From positions 248,001 through 312,000 of the forward strand of contig NZ_PCPT01000005.1 of the NCBI RefSeq assembly GCF_002975435.1: 64,000 nucleotides of DNA, given 5' to 3'. This document shows, piece by piece, positions 39,427 to 45,494 of this stretch (position 1 is the stretch's first letter; every line of letters starts with the position of its first letter). The notes beneath the pieces are model-generated. The model was not told where the DNA came from. It saw nothing but the letters and a program-made list of their open reading frames with translations, and ran no database searches. The position numbers were made by a program, and so were the translations under genes. This DNA comes from Arthrobacter sp. MYb227 (lineage in GTDB: Bacteria > Actinomycetota > Actinomycetes > Actinomycetales > Micrococcaceae).

Positions 39427-40083
39427 GTGGATCAATCTACCGAATCGGAACGTTTTTCCGCTTCAGCAAAGCGCCGGTCCCGTTCGCGGGGCTGGCGCTT
39501 TGCCGTTGGCGCCCTCATGGCAGCAGCACTGATCACCCTGGTGATCCGTGCGACAGTCATTGACTTCTTCTATATCGGCTCCGAATCCATGGAATCGACG
39601 TTGAATCCCGGCGATGGGTTGTTAGTAAACCGTCTTGCCTATAAAAACCGCGAAATTCAACGCGGAGACATCATTATCTTCGACGGTCGTGGATCCTTCC
39701 TGCCCTATCAAAAACCAAACCCCATTGACTCGTTGGCCTGGGCCCTGCGTCTAGCCGGGAACGATGCGGTATACGTGAAACGAGTCATTGGAGTCGGCGG
39801 CGACACAATTTCCAGTAGGGGACAGGGCGGGAAACTACTTCTGAACGGAGTCCCACTTGATGAGCCGTACCTTTTTGCCGGGGATAAGCCCAGCGAACAA
39901 GAATTTAGCGTGGAAATTCCGGCTGGACGCCTCTGGGTCATGGGGGATCACCGCTCGGTCTCCGAGGACTCGCGCGCACTGCTTGGCGCACCCGGAGGCG
40001 GGATGATCAATACCAACCGTGTGCTAGGAGAAGTTACCGACGTGATTTGGCCCCTCGAAGCCAAACGATCGGTCACCGAATAA
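39427..40083 (+). CDS. lepB: Signal peptidase I (first copy)
   Basis: 218 residues, GTG start at 39427. One N-terminal membrane helix (residues 20-40), catalytic Ser in GSESMESTL and Lys in YVKRVIGVGGD, and the C-terminal box MGDHRSVSEDSR. Removes signal peptides at the outer membrane face. A second lepB lies at 45724; in related genomes such genes are adjacent, so 5.6 kb appear to have been inserted between them. Confidence 0.93.
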   Translation: MDQSTESERFSASAKRRSRSRGWRFAVGALMAAALITLVIRATVIDFFYIGSESMESTLNPGDGLLVNRLAYKNREIQRGDIIIFDGRGSFLPYQKPNPIDSLAWALRLAGNDAVYVKRVIGVGGDTISSRGQGGKLLLNGVPLDEPYLFAGDKPSEQEFSVEIPAGRLWVMGDHRSVSEDSRALLGAPGGGMINTNRVLGEVTDVIWPLEAKRSVTE

Positions 40084-40131
40084 CCAAAAACTTTGGTGCC
40101 GACAAATCTTTTTGAAAATCCCTTCTCGTTC

Positions 40132-40173
40132 TTGACCTGCGTCAAGGTAGCTACGGCGCAATCACGATGTACT
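40132..40173 (+). promoter_or_regulatory. FNR-like box and promoter of the metal chaperone gene
   Basis: TTGACCTGCGTCAA (40132-40145) is a perfect TTGAC-N4-GTCAA inverted repeat. A -10 element TGTACT lies at 40168-40173, which puts the box centre at -41.5 from the expected start (40180). This is the class II activator position of Crp/Fnr proteins. Confidence 0.75.
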
Positions 40174-40225
40174 GGTGGAACAGCGCATCAAAAGCGCAAG
40201 CACCAAAGAGACAAAGGTAGAGATC

Positions 40226-40447
40226 ATGAAAACCGCAAGATTTGAGACAGAACCATTCACCTGCCCTTCGTGCATCAAGAAGATTGAAGGGGTAGTCTCC
40301 AAGCTTCCCGGTGTTTCCTCCACACAGGTCATGTTCAATTCGAACAAGGTCAAGGTCCAATTTGATAGTGAGCAGATTCAGGCAGAGGCCATCTCCAAAA
40401 CCATCACCGATCTGGGTTACCCGGTTCTAGCACAAAAGGTTTCCTAA
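40226..40447 (+). CDS. Heavy-metal-associated (HMA) domain chaperone
   Basis: 73 residues from the ATG at 40226, with AGGTAGAG upstream. Single HMA domain with the metal-binding pair in FTCPSCIKKIEGVVSKLPGV and the usual VKVQFDSEQ strand. CPSC (not the CxGC or MxCxxC of copper chaperones) leaves metal preference open. It likely passes metal to the P-type ATPase at 41328, which lacks its own N-terminal HMA domain. First gene of the transcript that includes the Crp/Fnr regulator. Confidence 0.82.
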   Translation: MKTARFETEPFTCPSCIKKIEGVVSKLPGVSSTQVMFNSNKVKVQFDSEQIQAEAISKTITDLGYPVLAQKVS

Positions 40448-40462
40448 TCAGTTACTGATTGA

Positions 40463-41167
40463 ATGGGTGCCATGGACTTACCTCATGGACACCCGCAGGG
40501 GGACGACGCGCTCGAACAACTTGTAGCGCGCGTTCCCCTTTTCTCTGCCCTAGTGCCAGACGAACTCACAGCGGTGGCGCAACGTGTACGTCCCCGCAAG
40601 CACCCCCGTCAGGAACAGCTCTATGGTGCGGGAGAGAAAAACTCAAAACTCATGATCATTCACGCAGGACGCGTGAAGATCTACCGGATCACCGAATCGG
40701 GACACGAGCAGGTGATCCGCATTCTGGGGCCCGGGGATTTTTTGGGTGAATCAACATTTATCAGCGGCGCCACCAGCGACCATTTCGCGCTGACCCTAGA
40801 AGCTTCGGATATTTGCGAACTACACCATGACGAACTTCACGACTATTTGCTCGCCTACCCATCGGTTGCGGTAAAAATGGTTGAGACTCTCAGCGCAAGG
40901 CTTGCCGGAACCGAACACCAGCTCAGTATGCTTGCCGGCGAGGATGCCGAGCATCGGCTCGCCGCCTACCTCATGGCGCTTCACGATGCCTCGGGCAAGG
41001 CCCTGGTCAAGCTGCCCACCACCAAGAAGGATGTTGCCTCGTTCCTGGGGTTGACCCCGGAAACATTAAGTCGCAAACTCACCCAATTTGAAGAGATCGG
41101 TTGGTTGCGTCTTGGATCACGGCGGCAGATCGAACTTTTGGATGTAGAAGCGCTGCGACTGATCTGA
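40463..41167 (+). CDS. Crp/Fnr-family regulator without Fe-S cysteines
   Basis: 234 residues from ATG 40463 (40472 also possible). Cyclic-nucleotide-type beta barrel at residues 25-140 (LFSALVPDELTAVAQRV, RILGPGDFLGESTFISG). C-terminal helix-turn-helix with KKDVASFLGLTPETLSRKL. The recognition helix has Glu and Ser-Arg in the E-x-x-S-R spacing that reads TTGAT half-sites in FNR. There is only one cysteine, so no FNR-type cluster; the signal is unknown. It probably activates the two flanking promoters that carry TTGAC-N4-RTCAA boxes, including its own. Confidence 0.87.
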   Translation: MGAMDLPHGHPQGDDALEQLVARVPLFSALVPDELTAVAQRVRPRKHPRQEQLYGAGEKNSKLMIIHAGRVKIYRITESGHEQVIRILGPGDFLGESTFISGATSDHFALTLEASDICELHHDELHDYLLAYPSVAVKMVETLSARLAGTEHQLSMLAGEDAEHRLAAYLMALHDASGKALVKLPTTKKDVASFLGLTPETLSRKLTQFEEIGWLRLGSRRQIELLDVEALRLI

Positions 41168-41224
41168 GCAAAGCTGAACTCATGAATTAGCAAAGCCCAC
41201 GAGGGCTAGTAGGTTTTTGCGTTC

Positions 41225-41266
41225 TTGACCTACATCAAGGCGCAATCTTGGGGGCTTGGATGTAAT
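41225..41266 (+). promoter_or_regulatory. FNR-like box and promoter of the P-type ATPase gene
   Basis: TTGACCTACATCAA (41225-41238), and a -10 element TGTAAT at 41261-41266. The spacing is identical to the base to that at 40132-40173, so the box is again centred at -41.5. GGCGCAATC follows the box in both promoters. Confidence 0.75.
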
Positions 41267-41327
41267 GGAAGTGGAAGATCGTGAATCCGCGCGATCTGAC
41301 CTTCCACATCCAAGGAGTTAAGTTCAC

Positions 41328-43250
41328 ATGACCGGCAAGCATAAGGCACAGATTGCGGCCCTCACCGGAGCCCTGCTGTTGCTCAGCATCGTCCTGCATC
41401 CGACGGGCCTGCACATTGCCCGGGATGTGCTCTTGTTTGGCTCCGCGGTCATCGCCGGGGTGCCCACGGCAATTCGTGCGTTCCAGGGCCTGCGGATGAA
41501 GGCCTTTAGCATTGATCTTCTTGTCACCATCGCCGTCGTCGGAGCACTGATCATTGGTGAGTACGTGGAGGCGGCAGTTGTCTCATTCCTGTTCATCTTC
41601 GGAGCTTGGCTTGAGGCACGAACCCTGGAAAAGACTCGCTCCTCGCTACGAAACCTTGTTGATTCCGCCCCGCAGGAAGCAACGGTGTTGCGCGACGGGG
41701 AAAGCATCACGGTGCCGGTAGATGACATTGTTGAGGGTGACACCCTCATCATTCATTCCGGTGGCAAGGTAGCGGTTGATGGGGTGATTGTTTCGGGCCG
41801 CGGCCACTTGGTTGAAGCGGCGATTACCGGCGAATCGGTACCGGTGCCCAAAACTATCGGGCAAAAAGTTTATTCCGGAACCCTACTAGATACCGGATTC
41901 CTGCATGTGGAAGCCGAGCACGTAGGCGATGACACAACCTTTGCACAGATCATTGAGCTGGTTGAAGAAGCCCAGGAAACCAAGACCAAGGCCCAGCGCT
42001 TCCTGGATAAGTTCGCCAACATTTACACCCCTGCAATCGTTGTACTCTCCATTATTGTGTTGATCTTCAGCCGCAACATTGAATTCGCACTGACCTTCTT
42101 GGTCATTGCCTGCCCCGGTGCCCTGGTCATCTCCACGCCCGTCTCGATGGTTGCCGGATTGGGTAACGGTGCACGCCACGGCGTGCTGCTCAAGGGTGGT
42201 GACGCACTTGAGCGTCTATCCAAGATCGACACCCTGGTCTTTGACAAGACAGGTACCCTCACCGAGGGCAAGCCACGGTTGACCGAGGTCAAGACCGTCA
42301 ACGGAAATGATGAGCATCAGATTCTTGCCATGGCAGCAATTCTTGAAACCGCTTCCGAACACCCACTGGGACGCACCATCGTGCAGGGCGCGCAGGATGC
42401 CGGCATCGACATTGAATCCAAGCCACACGATGTCCAAGTCATCAAGGGCGGCGGCATTGGCGGTACCGTCAAGGGACAACATGTCGTTGTTGGTACCCGT
42501 CGAGTGCTCAACTCCCTAGGCGTGCAGATTCCCGAGGCAGTTGCCGCACACGCCGTGACGCGCGAACGGGAAGGGAATACAGTTGTCTTCGTGGTCATTG
42601 AGGAGATTCTCGTGGCCACCATGTCCATCGCCGACACGGTGCGTGCGGAGGTTAAGGACGCGATCACCGCGCTGCGTGCCGGAGGCATCAAGCACTTCTA
42701 CATGCTCACCGGAGATAACAAGCACACCGCTCACCTCGTGGCAGCTCAGCTGTCCATCGAAAACGTTCACGCCGAACTGCTGCCGGCCGATAAGGTGACC
42801 CTGGTGGCCGCGATGAAGGCCGAGGGTAAACGCGTGGGAATGGTGGGCGACGGTATCAACGATGCACCGGCGATTGCCACGGCGGATATTGGTATTGCCA
42901 TGGGTGCCGGAACCGACGTATCGATCCAAACGGCCGATGCGATTCTCATGGGCAACCGTTTTGACCAGCTGGTCCACGCGGTGTCCCTTGCCAAGGCCAC
43001 TGTACGAAACATGAAACAAAATACCTTCATCGCCATTGGCACAGTTGTCATGTTGCTCCTCGGTGTCTTGTCCCAGAAGGTGTTCATGTCCACCGGCATG
43101 CTGGTTCACGAGATTAGCGTCATCGTGGTGATCCTCAACGCCATTCGTTTGGTTCGCTTCAGTGACAAGAAGGGTGCGGCACATGCGGCTCTACCCGCCA
43201 TGGAACAAACCGAAGAGTCCAAGGAACTGCTGGAGGAAAGCCAGCGGTAG
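41328..43250 (+). CDS. P1B-type metal-transporting ATPase with CPG motif
   Basis: 640 residues, ATG after AAGGAG. No N-terminal metal domain. Two membrane hairpins (residues 5-95), actuator domain with ITGESVPVPK, then ACPGALVISTPVS (Cys262-Pro263-Gly264) in the ion-path helix, where zinc and copper pumps have CPC. Phosphorylation site DKTGTLTEG (Asp306), HP motif SEHPLGRT, GDGINDAPA hinge. The last helices have HEISVIVVILNAIRL. Metal export by ATP hydrolysis is expected, with the HMA protein at 40226 as donor; the metal is open. Regulated by the FNR-like box upstream. Confidence 0.9.
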   Translation: MTGKHKAQIAALTGALLLLSIVLHPTGLHIARDVLLFGSAVIAGVPTAIRAFQGLRMKAFSIDLLVTIAVVGALIIGEYVEAAVVSFLFIFGAWLEARTLEKTRSSLRNLVDSAPQEATVLRDGESITVPVDDIVEGDTLIIHSGGKVAVDGVIVSGRGHLVEAAITGESVPVPKTIGQKVYSGTLLDTGFLHVEAEHVGDDTTFAQIIELVEEAQETKTKAQRFLDKFANIYTPAIVVLSIIVLIFSRNIEFALTFLVIACPGALVISTPVSMVAGLGNGARHGVLLKGGDALERLSKIDTLVFDKTGTLTEGKPRLTEVKTVNGNDEHQILAMAAILETASEHPLGRTIVQGAQDAGIDIESKPHDVQVIKGGGIGGTVKGQHVVVGTRRVLNSLGVQIPEAVAAHAVTREREGNTVVFVVIEEILVATMSIADTVRAEVKDAITALRAGGIKHFYMLTGDNKHTAHLVAAQLSIENVHAELLPADKVTLVAAMKAEGKRVGMVGDGINDAPAIATADIGIAMGAGTDVSIQTADAILMGNRFDQLVHAVSLAKATVRNMKQNTFIAIGTVVMLLLGVLSQKVFMSTGMLVHEISVIVVILNAIRLVRFSDKKGAAHAALPAMEQTEESKELLEESQR

Positions 43251-43550
43251 CATCGCCACCTAAACACACTCACCAGCTGATGGCCTTGTTTCGCATGTGC
43301 GGGTGCAGGGTCATCACCTGGTGACGGTGCTGGTTCAGAACCGTAATTTTTACTTGCGCGTCAGTTATGTACGTTCACGCGCGACGGGGATTACCGCAAG
43401 ATGGGCATCGATACTGTGCCAGTGGTCTTCGGGACTACGAATATTGGAATCAACACGTGGTGAGCCAATGCCCCGAACCTGCTGTTTTGCGGATAAAGTC
43501 GTGATTCTGCGCTCCATCGTGGGCCAACAAATTCCGGGGGAGAATCACCA
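43251..43550. other. Intergenic region before the secreted protease
   Basis: 300 bases. A weak hairpin ACGGT...ACCGT followed by AATTTTT (about 43325-43352) may end the ATPase transcript. GGGGGAGAATCACC directly precedes the protease ATG. No further feature. Confidence 0.45.
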
Positions 43551-45494
43551 ATGCATCAATCGTTGCCAGCCATTATTAAACGCCTAGCGGTGCTTAGCGT
43601 GAGCATGCTGCTGGTGCTTGGTGGTGGGCAGCTTGCCACGGCAGCTAGTAGTCATGCCGCAACACCCCTGGTGATAGCCGAACAGCTACCTGCTGCCAAG
43701 AACCCGCGGACCGTAGAAGAACTCTTCAACGACTACGTGCGCCAGATCGACCCCGCAGCCTTGGACCAGCTACAGGCAATCATGCTCACCAAAAACGGGT
43801 TCATTATTCGTACAGGTGCACTATCCTCGGGCCCTCGTGCAGTTCCACGGATGGCAACCTTGGATATTTATCCACGGACAAAATTGACACCGGAACAATT
43901 TGCGAGCAAATATTCAAACGTCACCCTGCGTGAAGCCGCCGGCCCCGCAGAATCCTCCGCGGCAAACGAAGTTCTCGGCGGGATGGGATATGGTTCCGAG
44001 CTGGCACCGGAAGTCTTTGCCGTGTGTTCCATTGGATTCGCTGGATTCAATGCGGTGGGAGCACCGGCAGCGATCTCCGCAGGACATTGCACCCGGGATG
44101 GGAAAATCAAATCACTTCGGGTGGAAAAACCCTCCTCGAGTCAGGACTTTGGCGGACTTGGAACAGCACTTGGACAATTTGGATTCGCCCAATTTGGGGG
44201 ACGCAACAACACGGCAACCACGCTCAAGGGAAACTACCTGGTAGGTAACCTGGGAACAGATATATCGGTCATCAACCAATTGAATCCGGGATTTAAAACC
44301 CAGCCATACCTCAGCGGCTGGGCCCAGGGGAAAGCCGAAAGTCGCGGCCCCAAAATCACCGGGATCACTCAAGCCAAGCTTGGCACCAAGGTTTGTAAGT
44401 CCGGGCGAACCACCGGGTACACCTGTGGCACGGTTGACGAAGTCGGAATCTTTGTTGTGGGCGGCTTCAAAAACACTTCACGTGATATCCGTGCCATCCA
44501 CGGATTCGGCATGAAAAATCGTAACTACCGGCTCGCGGATGAGGGTGATTCTGGCGGTGGAGCTATCTCCGGCAGTAGCGCCGTGGGAATCACCAGTGCC
44601 ATCGCCGATGATGACGGGGGACGAGCATACTTTGCCGATATTACCCGCGCACTGAAGGCAACACCTGGCTACAGTATTAAGCTTGCCCTGAATACTCCCA
44701 AACTTAGTACCGCCGCCAGCAAAGCCGGACTCGAATTTGGCACCCGCATCAACGGTAGCGTTGCCAACGCTCCGGCAGGAACCACGGTCAGGGTGAACGC
44801 TGGTGGAAAAACGATCGCCAAGGCGAAAGTCGAAAAGGGAAAATTTAGTTTCAAAACCCCACCTGGCGCCGGAAACCTGACATTCAGTGCGCAAGCCGTT
44901 AGCGGATACAACAAGTCCTCTACCGCTACCAAAAGCTACAAACTAGTGGTTCCGCGACCAAAGATCACTTCCCTGAGCAAAGCGGCACGTGGAACCAACG
45001 CACCACAAATAATTTCCGGCACCGGTACGCCTCAGGCAACCGTGACACTCAACCGGGCGGGGAAACCTAAAGTAACTGCCACGGTCTCGGCCAAGGGGAG
45101 CTGGAGCATTAAACCGAAGGGTTCCTGGGGCTATGGGACCACTACAATCAGCACAACACAAAAAATTGGGAAAGATTCCTCGCCCGTAGCTAAATCCACG
45201 TTCAAGCTCATCCCCAAGGCACCCACGATTACCACACCCAAAACAAACGCCAAATTCGCCTACAGTAAAGCACCACGTACTATCGGCGGAACCGGAATCA
45301 ATGGGGCGACGGTCAAGATCAGCGCCGGCAAGAACACCATCAAAGTCAAGATTGTCGGCAACAAATGGAAAGCTAAACTCCCGGTGCGACTGGGAGCCGG
45401 GACGCATCAAATCACGGCAACACAAACCATCGCTAAAACTTCCTCCGCACCAACTCATAGAAGCATCACGGTTGCCAAACCTGTGCGCCGCTAA
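43551..45494 (+). CDS. Secreted S1-family serine protease with C-terminal Ig-like repeats
   Basis: 647 residues. Signal peptide (about 1-37) ending near AASSHAA. A pro-region of about 100 residues is followed by a trypsin-like domain of the streptogrisin type with His179 (SAGHCT), Asp237 (GTDISVI) and Ser334 (EGDSGGG). Cys pairs sit around the His and in CKSGRTTGYTCG. After residue 385 come three beta-rich repeats of about 85 residues that end in motifs such as SGTGTPQATV and GGTGINGATV, resembling bacterial Ig modules for wall or polymer binding. It lies directly upstream of lepB2. Target unknown. Confidence 0.88.
   Translation: MHQSLPAIIKRLAVLSVSMLLVLGGGQLATAASSHAATPLVIAEQLPAAKNPRTVEELFNDYVRQIDPAALDQLQAIMLTKNGFIIRTGALSSGPRAVPRMATLDIYPRTKLTPEQFASKYSNVTLREAAGPAESSAANEVLGGMGYGSELAPEVFAVCSIGFAGFNAVGAPAAISAGHCTRDGKIKSLRVEKPSSSQDFGGLGTALGQFGFAQFGGRNNTATTLKGNYLVGNLGTDISVINQLNPGFKTQPYLSGWAQGKAESRGPKITGITQAKLGTKVCKSGRTTGYTCGTVDEVGIFVVGGFKNTSRDIRAIHGFGMKNRNYRLADEGDSGGGAISGSSAVGITSAIADDDGGRAYFADITRALKATPGYSIKLALNTPKLSTAASKAGLEFGTRINGSVANAPAGTTVRVNAGGKTIAKAKVEKGKFSFKTPPGAGNLTFSAQAVSGYNKSSTATKSYKLVVPRPKITSLSKAARGTNAPQIISGTGTPQATVTLNRAGKPKVTATVSAKGSWSIKPKGSWGYGTTTISTTQKIGKDSSPVAKSTFKLIPKAPTITTPKTNAKFAYSKAPRTIGGTGINGATVKISAGKNTIKVKIVGNKWKAKLPVRLGAGTHQITATQTIAKTSSAPTHRSITVAKPVRR

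Follow-up and report, generated by a model that had tools for sequence, protein, structure and literature searches.

The locus analysed here raises the question of whether a Crp/Fnr-type protein, encoded between two similar promoters, activates both its own operon and the adjoining gene for a metal pump and, if so, which signal it reads and which metal is moved. Within a stretch of 64,000 nucleotides from Arthrobacter sp. MYb227 (the window, to which the coordinates of the module refer), the original prediction had described twin class II FNR-like promoters under the control of the intervening protein, forming a self-contained metal-export regulon.

Gene content and promoter geometry

The three genes of the module are all encoded on the forward strand. 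The first specifies a 73-aa HMA metallochaperone-like protein with a CPSC motif (40226..40447, found as an ORF and by profile search). The second specifies a 234-aa Crp/Fnr regulator with an ExxSR helix and a single cysteine, C118 (40463..41167; ORF, profile search and alignment), for which the second ATG at 40472 is a possible alternative start. The third (41328..43250; ORF, profile and motifs) codes for a 640-aa P1B-type ATPase with CPG in TM6 and His-Glu in TM8, in which Pfam gave no match for an HMA domain. A weak terminator-like hairpin on the forward strand (41194..41207, from a hairpin scan) is located 3' of the regulator gene and ahead of the second promoter; the scanned region contains 7 such hairpins where 3.2 would be expected.

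Box 1, TTGACCTGCGTCAA (40132..40145), precedes the chaperone gene and box 2, TTGACCTACATCAA (41225..41238), the ATPase gene. Both are motif matches on the forward strand, at the places where they had been predicted, and both are followed by GG. The corresponding -10 elements, TGTACT (40168..40173) and TGTAAT (41261..41266), were assigned on the forward strand from their spacing and from conservation in relatives, so that the two promoters share the layout box, GG, 20 bases, TGTANT. At both promoters, the -10 element begins 29.5 bases from the centre of the box, an equality that the original prediction had claimed, and this sequence spacing is that of class II promoters with a box centred at -41.5; transcription is predicted to start at about 40180 from promoter 1 and at about 41273 from promoter 2. 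A consensus scan of positions 40050-43600 yielded no ordinary sigma-70 promoter, which fits dependence on an activator.

The box by itself was dropped as evidence, as its exact sites number 32 across the 4.31 Mb genome, compared with 11 for the reversed control, and as its one-mismatch matches in the window (7, with 4.9 expected) are close to chance level. The window has one more exact box (42279-42292), which is internal to the ATPase coding sequence, lacks the geometry, and was taken as a chance occurrence. The second exact copy of TTGACCTGCGTCAA in the genome (L020, 5053-5066) has no spaced -10 element on either strand; it is found directly 5' of a membrane-protease-like gene that is encoded on the minus strand.

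The full pattern (the box, the GG that follows it and a TRNNNT with class II spacing) occurs twice in the window and was never found in 100 shuffles. A search of the whole genome, which had been proposed as a check, retrieved two forward matches and no reverse ones (control 0), and both are the sites in the window. For the 29 box sites of the genome outside the window, taken on both strands, the best spaced hexamer agrees with TATAAT in 4 of 6 positions, and this is seen once. The regulon can thus be called self-contained in this genome, insofar as only two sites have the geometry. A point against the assignment is that position 2 of the -10 element is a G at both promoters of the window, while most relatives have TANNNT.

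Conservation of the pattern and its association with the regulator

In a survey of 295 genomes of the family, in which the regulator was called at an E-value of at most 1e-35, the full pattern was present in 51 genomes (68 sites), compared with a single genome of the 295 for the reversed control. The regulator was called in 40 genomes, 36 of which also have the pattern, as against 15 of the 255 genomes without it (Fisher p 9.7e-30, with the overlap counted by hand from two listings). Counting against the association, 4 of the 40 regulator genomes lack the pattern and it occurs in those 15 genomes without a regulator call; in one genome of the same genus (G001), the pattern site lies away from the module. 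When 30 pattern loci were read, the next gene was of HMA type in 24, encoded a flavohaemoglobin in 3 and was neither in the remaining 3. At one locus (L179, box at 1501, minus strand), the HMA-type protein behind a well-placed box has no CxxC.

The genomes that carry the pattern without a regulator match at E 1e-35 might be taken to indicate that another Crp/Fnr protein binds the boxes and that the adjoining regulator is incidental. A GlxR-like protein would be a candidate, being the only other one in the genome that scores strongly for HTH_Crp (two more barely pass the cut-off). We consider this very improbable, as the recognition helix of the GlxR-like protein reads RETVNK rather than ExxSR, and as the pattern follows the regulator, whereas GlxR-like proteins were matched in all 39 relatives searched (weaker matches being untyped). 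That the genome encodes just two proteins with a strong HTH_Crp score, the regulator among them, adds to the case for it as the activator, as originally proposed.

A wider scan of contigs used the best 80 of 458 regulator relatives, which, judging by their record titles, are mostly from Actinomycetota and Bacillota. Among 55 distinct boxes 5' of HMA or ATPase genes, TANNNT is found at offset +23 in 33 cases and at any other offset between 1 and 40 in at most 2; for 116 other boxes, the number at +23 is 23. The regulators were clustered at 70% identity (117 rows reduced to 55 representatives, rows under 180 aa having been dropped). At least 27 of the representatives are accompanied by an HMA protein, at least 26 by a CPG ATPase and at least 24 by both, these being lower bounds because some loci have flanks of only 1.5 kb. 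Boxes before chaperone or pump genes have TRNNNT at +23 in 31 of 36 cases, covering 26 representatives, while the next most frequent offset accounts for 6. Such a promoter is present on both genes in 7 representatives, including those on plasmids of Lactococcus, S. equorum and E. faecalis, and twin promoters occur on plasmids of four Bacillota genera (Leuconostoc, Lactococcus, Staphylococcus and Enterococcus). Counting against this regularity, the ATPase box of several Arthrobacter relatives has no good -10 element at +23. In a tree, the regulators of Actinomycetota and Bacillota separate.

It is extremely unlikely that chance, in an A/T-poor genome, accounts for the boxes and for their identical spacing: common as the box by itself is, with its 32 genomic sites, the spacing is kept in two phyla and goes together with the regulator. 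Conservation of the spacing in both phyla and co-occurrence of pattern and regulator support the proposal of class II promoters under the intervening protein. The recurrence of the layout in distant bacteria makes it look like a real, compact and under-described module for the control of metal handling.

The regulator and its possible signal

The protein encoded at 40463 combines a cNMP-binding fold with an HTH_Crp domain and thus belongs to the Crp/Fnr superfamily. The ExxSR recognition helix claimed for it is present as E200, S203 and R204, which align with E209, S212 and R213 of FNR, the three DNA-contact residues. A caveat to an FNR-type reading is that the fold fits CRP and FNR equally well. 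As a signal, cAMP is disfavoured. An arginine in the phosphate-binding cassette defines cAMP binding, and in the alignment this arginine is present in the GlxR-like protein of this genome, whereas the regulator has a serine there.

The original prediction also stated that there is no cysteine cluster; this is correct for the N-terminal cluster, which is absent, but it overlooked the one cysteine, C118. This residue aligns with Cys122 of FNR, one of the cluster ligands; the remaining three have no counterpart in the protein. In FNR, four cysteines hold a [4Fe-4S] cluster (PMC4505428), so that a protein with C118 only is not an FNR in the strict sense. C118 is kept in all 116 family rows that have a residue at this position and, being both equivalent to Cys122 of FNR and invariant in the family, is likely to mark a sensing site. 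H67 is mostly conserved and the N-terminus is His/Cys-rich. At the column of the N-terminal cysteine, which is a cysteine in 96 of 117 relatives, the window protein has a leucine; its clade lacks this cysteine but has kept histidines at the N-terminus, which, in the most tentative reading given below, would suggest a ligand swap by which a thiol or cluster site became a mononuclear metal site.

We regard a metal or redox signal, received via C118 and the histidines, as likely. Another option, to which we give clearly less credit, is that the signal is oxygen or nitric oxide, as for FNR or DNR, with the pump handling metal when oxygen is low or NO causes stress and the metal not being the direct signal. 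The equivalence of C118 with FNR C122 speaks for this, as does a passage of PMC5039431 that cites an oxygen-labile Fe-S cluster with non-cysteinyl ligands for FlpA. Flavohaemoglobin genes are also found behind such boxes, the class II pattern being seen in three genomes (L193, L194 and L195, box at 1501) from another genus of the family, and these promoters hint at a link to nitric oxide. In opposition to oxygen or NO sensing, the regulator has just one of FNR's four cluster cysteines, and the only two pattern sites of this genome serve metal genes.

The pump and its metal

The ATPase scores 563.9 bits against the P1B profile TIGR01525 (cut-off 346.25) and is thus a P1B-type pump. Copper pumps of the P1B-1 type have CPC in TM6, YN in TM7 and MxxSS in TM8. 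The ATPase has CPG, no YN, and HE in place of MxxSS; a copper pump is therefore disfavoured. P1B-4 pumps have SPC in TM6 and HE in TM8, and here the HE is present but TM6 reads CPG. Other pumps of the same genome are of the CPC, CPH, SPC and TPC types, so that the CPG pump represents a further type. Among the CPG-labelled ATPases, 34 of 35 rows have HE in TM8, with TM8 of the remaining row (L157) unread.

Several plasmids of relatives carry Dps or ferritin-like genes in regulator-linked operons (the ferritin-like gene of Lactococcus scoring below the Pfam cut-off), and genes for VIT1/CCC1 and FetB are close by on the Leuconostoc plasmid. Genes for a hemerythrin-domain protein, VIT1, DUF6448 proteins and flavohaemoglobin are found behind such boxes in relatives, some of these boxes having poor -10 elements (L107, L156). 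Indirectly, these neighbours, which belong to the genomes of relatives and not to this one, lean towards iron or redox. We think that a divalent metal is the most likely cargo, with Fe(II) as the best guess and Zn(II) as the next; for iron as such, we put the chance slightly below even.

Two further observations were made at these loci. DUF6448 genes (HCDT proteins; assigned by a Pfam run on L142) with boxes occur near regulator relatives in L118, L126, L130, L134, L142, L143, L154, L165 and L167. In L111 and L128, the HMA gene has a methyltransferase gene upstream, and this is preceded by another box of class II type, the second at these loci.

Damaged modules and chromosomal setting in the genus

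Two genomes of the same genus have damaged modules. In G001, the ATPase match covers only the C-terminal part, and in G005 the module sits at the edge of a contig, where the HMA match is split. Both genomes carry changes in the right half of the HMA box, with TGTA still at +23. Loss of selection on the pair would give this outcome.

In 14 of 15 genomes of the genus, including this one, a single contig carries two signal-peptidase genes no more than about 6 kb apart; in G005, the two are split between contigs. The pair encloses the module in the present genome; the modules of G001 and G010 are on contigs other than that of the pair. None of six flank proteins was matched in the stretches around the modules of G001 and G010. 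With the modules located elsewhere and the flank proteins unmatched there, a shared or clean insertion site is unsupported. Downstream of the ATPase gene, and before the second of the signal-peptidase genes, there is also a gene (43551-45494) for a protein of 647 aa that, by eye, is secreted-looking and serine protease-like with repeated C-terminal segments.

A proposed mechanism

The account that we favour, and consider likely as a whole, is that of a self-activating FLP/FNR-type module for the export of a divalent metal, responding to a metal or redox signal and probably linked to iron. It is based on the promoter geometry, its conservation, the co-occurrence with the regulator and the residue equivalences, from which we infer binding, activation, signal, metal and direction of transport. 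The 40463 protein would be an FNR-type activator that binds as a signal-loaded dimer to both boxes; its placement at -41.5 would recruit RNA polymerase to the weak -10 elements of both promoters. By activating its own HMA-crp operon, it would amplify the synthesis of chaperone and regulator (positive feedback), with the pump being made in parallel from the second promoter. The HMA protein would then pass the metal to the ATPase for export. For sensing, C118, H67 and the His/Cys-rich N-terminus would most likely hold a metal, a redox cofactor or an iron-sulfur cofactor, rather than cAMP. In our judgement, from which the gradings for activation, signal and iron cargo derive, binding and activation by the regulator at both promoters is very probable, by analogy with FNR. 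A more far-reaching and tentative idea, which we think is rather unlikely to hold in full, is that of a cross-phylum, partly plasmid-borne module in which metal sensing is done by the Crp/Fnr protein itself, the Cys122 position and histidines reading Fe(II) or another divalent metal and class II activation acting on a distinct CPG/HE subgroup of P1B pumps.

Most known regulators of metal efflux belong to the MerR, ArsR, CsoR, Fur and DtxR families. If true, the coupling of a Crp/Fnr activator to a pump and a chaperone through strictly conserved promoter spacing would provide a clean two-promoter system for FNR-like sensing without a full cluster, and the module would provide a regulatory handle on the CPG/HE pump subgroup. 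The spacing rule offers a low-background pattern in searches for regulon members (1 control match in 295 genomes).

Comparison with known systems

The partial search of the open literature found no description of the module in actinobacteria, and we do not claim that it is unpublished. An antibiotic-response table includes four plasmid genes of S. equorum KM1031, with no common direction seen in the portion of PMC9477809 consulted.

E. coli FNR at class II promoters shares with the present system the ExxSR helix, the TTGAY-N4-RTCAA box, the -41.5 geometry (FF-41.5 being a class II FNR-dependent promoter according to a passage of PMC4505428) and the cysteine at position 122. It differs in having the three cluster cysteines that are absent here, and the targets here are metal genes, not those of anaerobic respiration. 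With P1B-4-type pumps, including the SPC pump of the same genome, the ATPase shares HE in TM8, but it has CPG instead of SPC in TM6 and its HMA partner is a stand-alone protein.

By its partners, the module resembles the systems of FLP-type regulators of lactic acid bacteria (FLP of L. casei, FlpA and FlpB of L. lactis), which are FNR-like with fewer cysteines than FNR and whose binding to DNA is switched through thiols or an Fe-S site. The FlpA regulon is filed under metal homeostasis in an excerpt of PMC3616900. The setting is also similar, as relatives of the regulator on plasmids of Lactococcus, Leuconostoc and Enterococcus adjoin HMA, P-type ATPase and ferritin-like genes; these may be FlpA orthologues. 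Unlike those plasmid relatives, the operon in the window has no ferritin-like gene and, where FLP has one N-terminal and one central cysteine, the window protein has only the central one. Judged by sequence, the regulator is neither an FNR proper nor a two-cysteine FLP, and its module is one member of a widespread type that resembles FLP-type systems.
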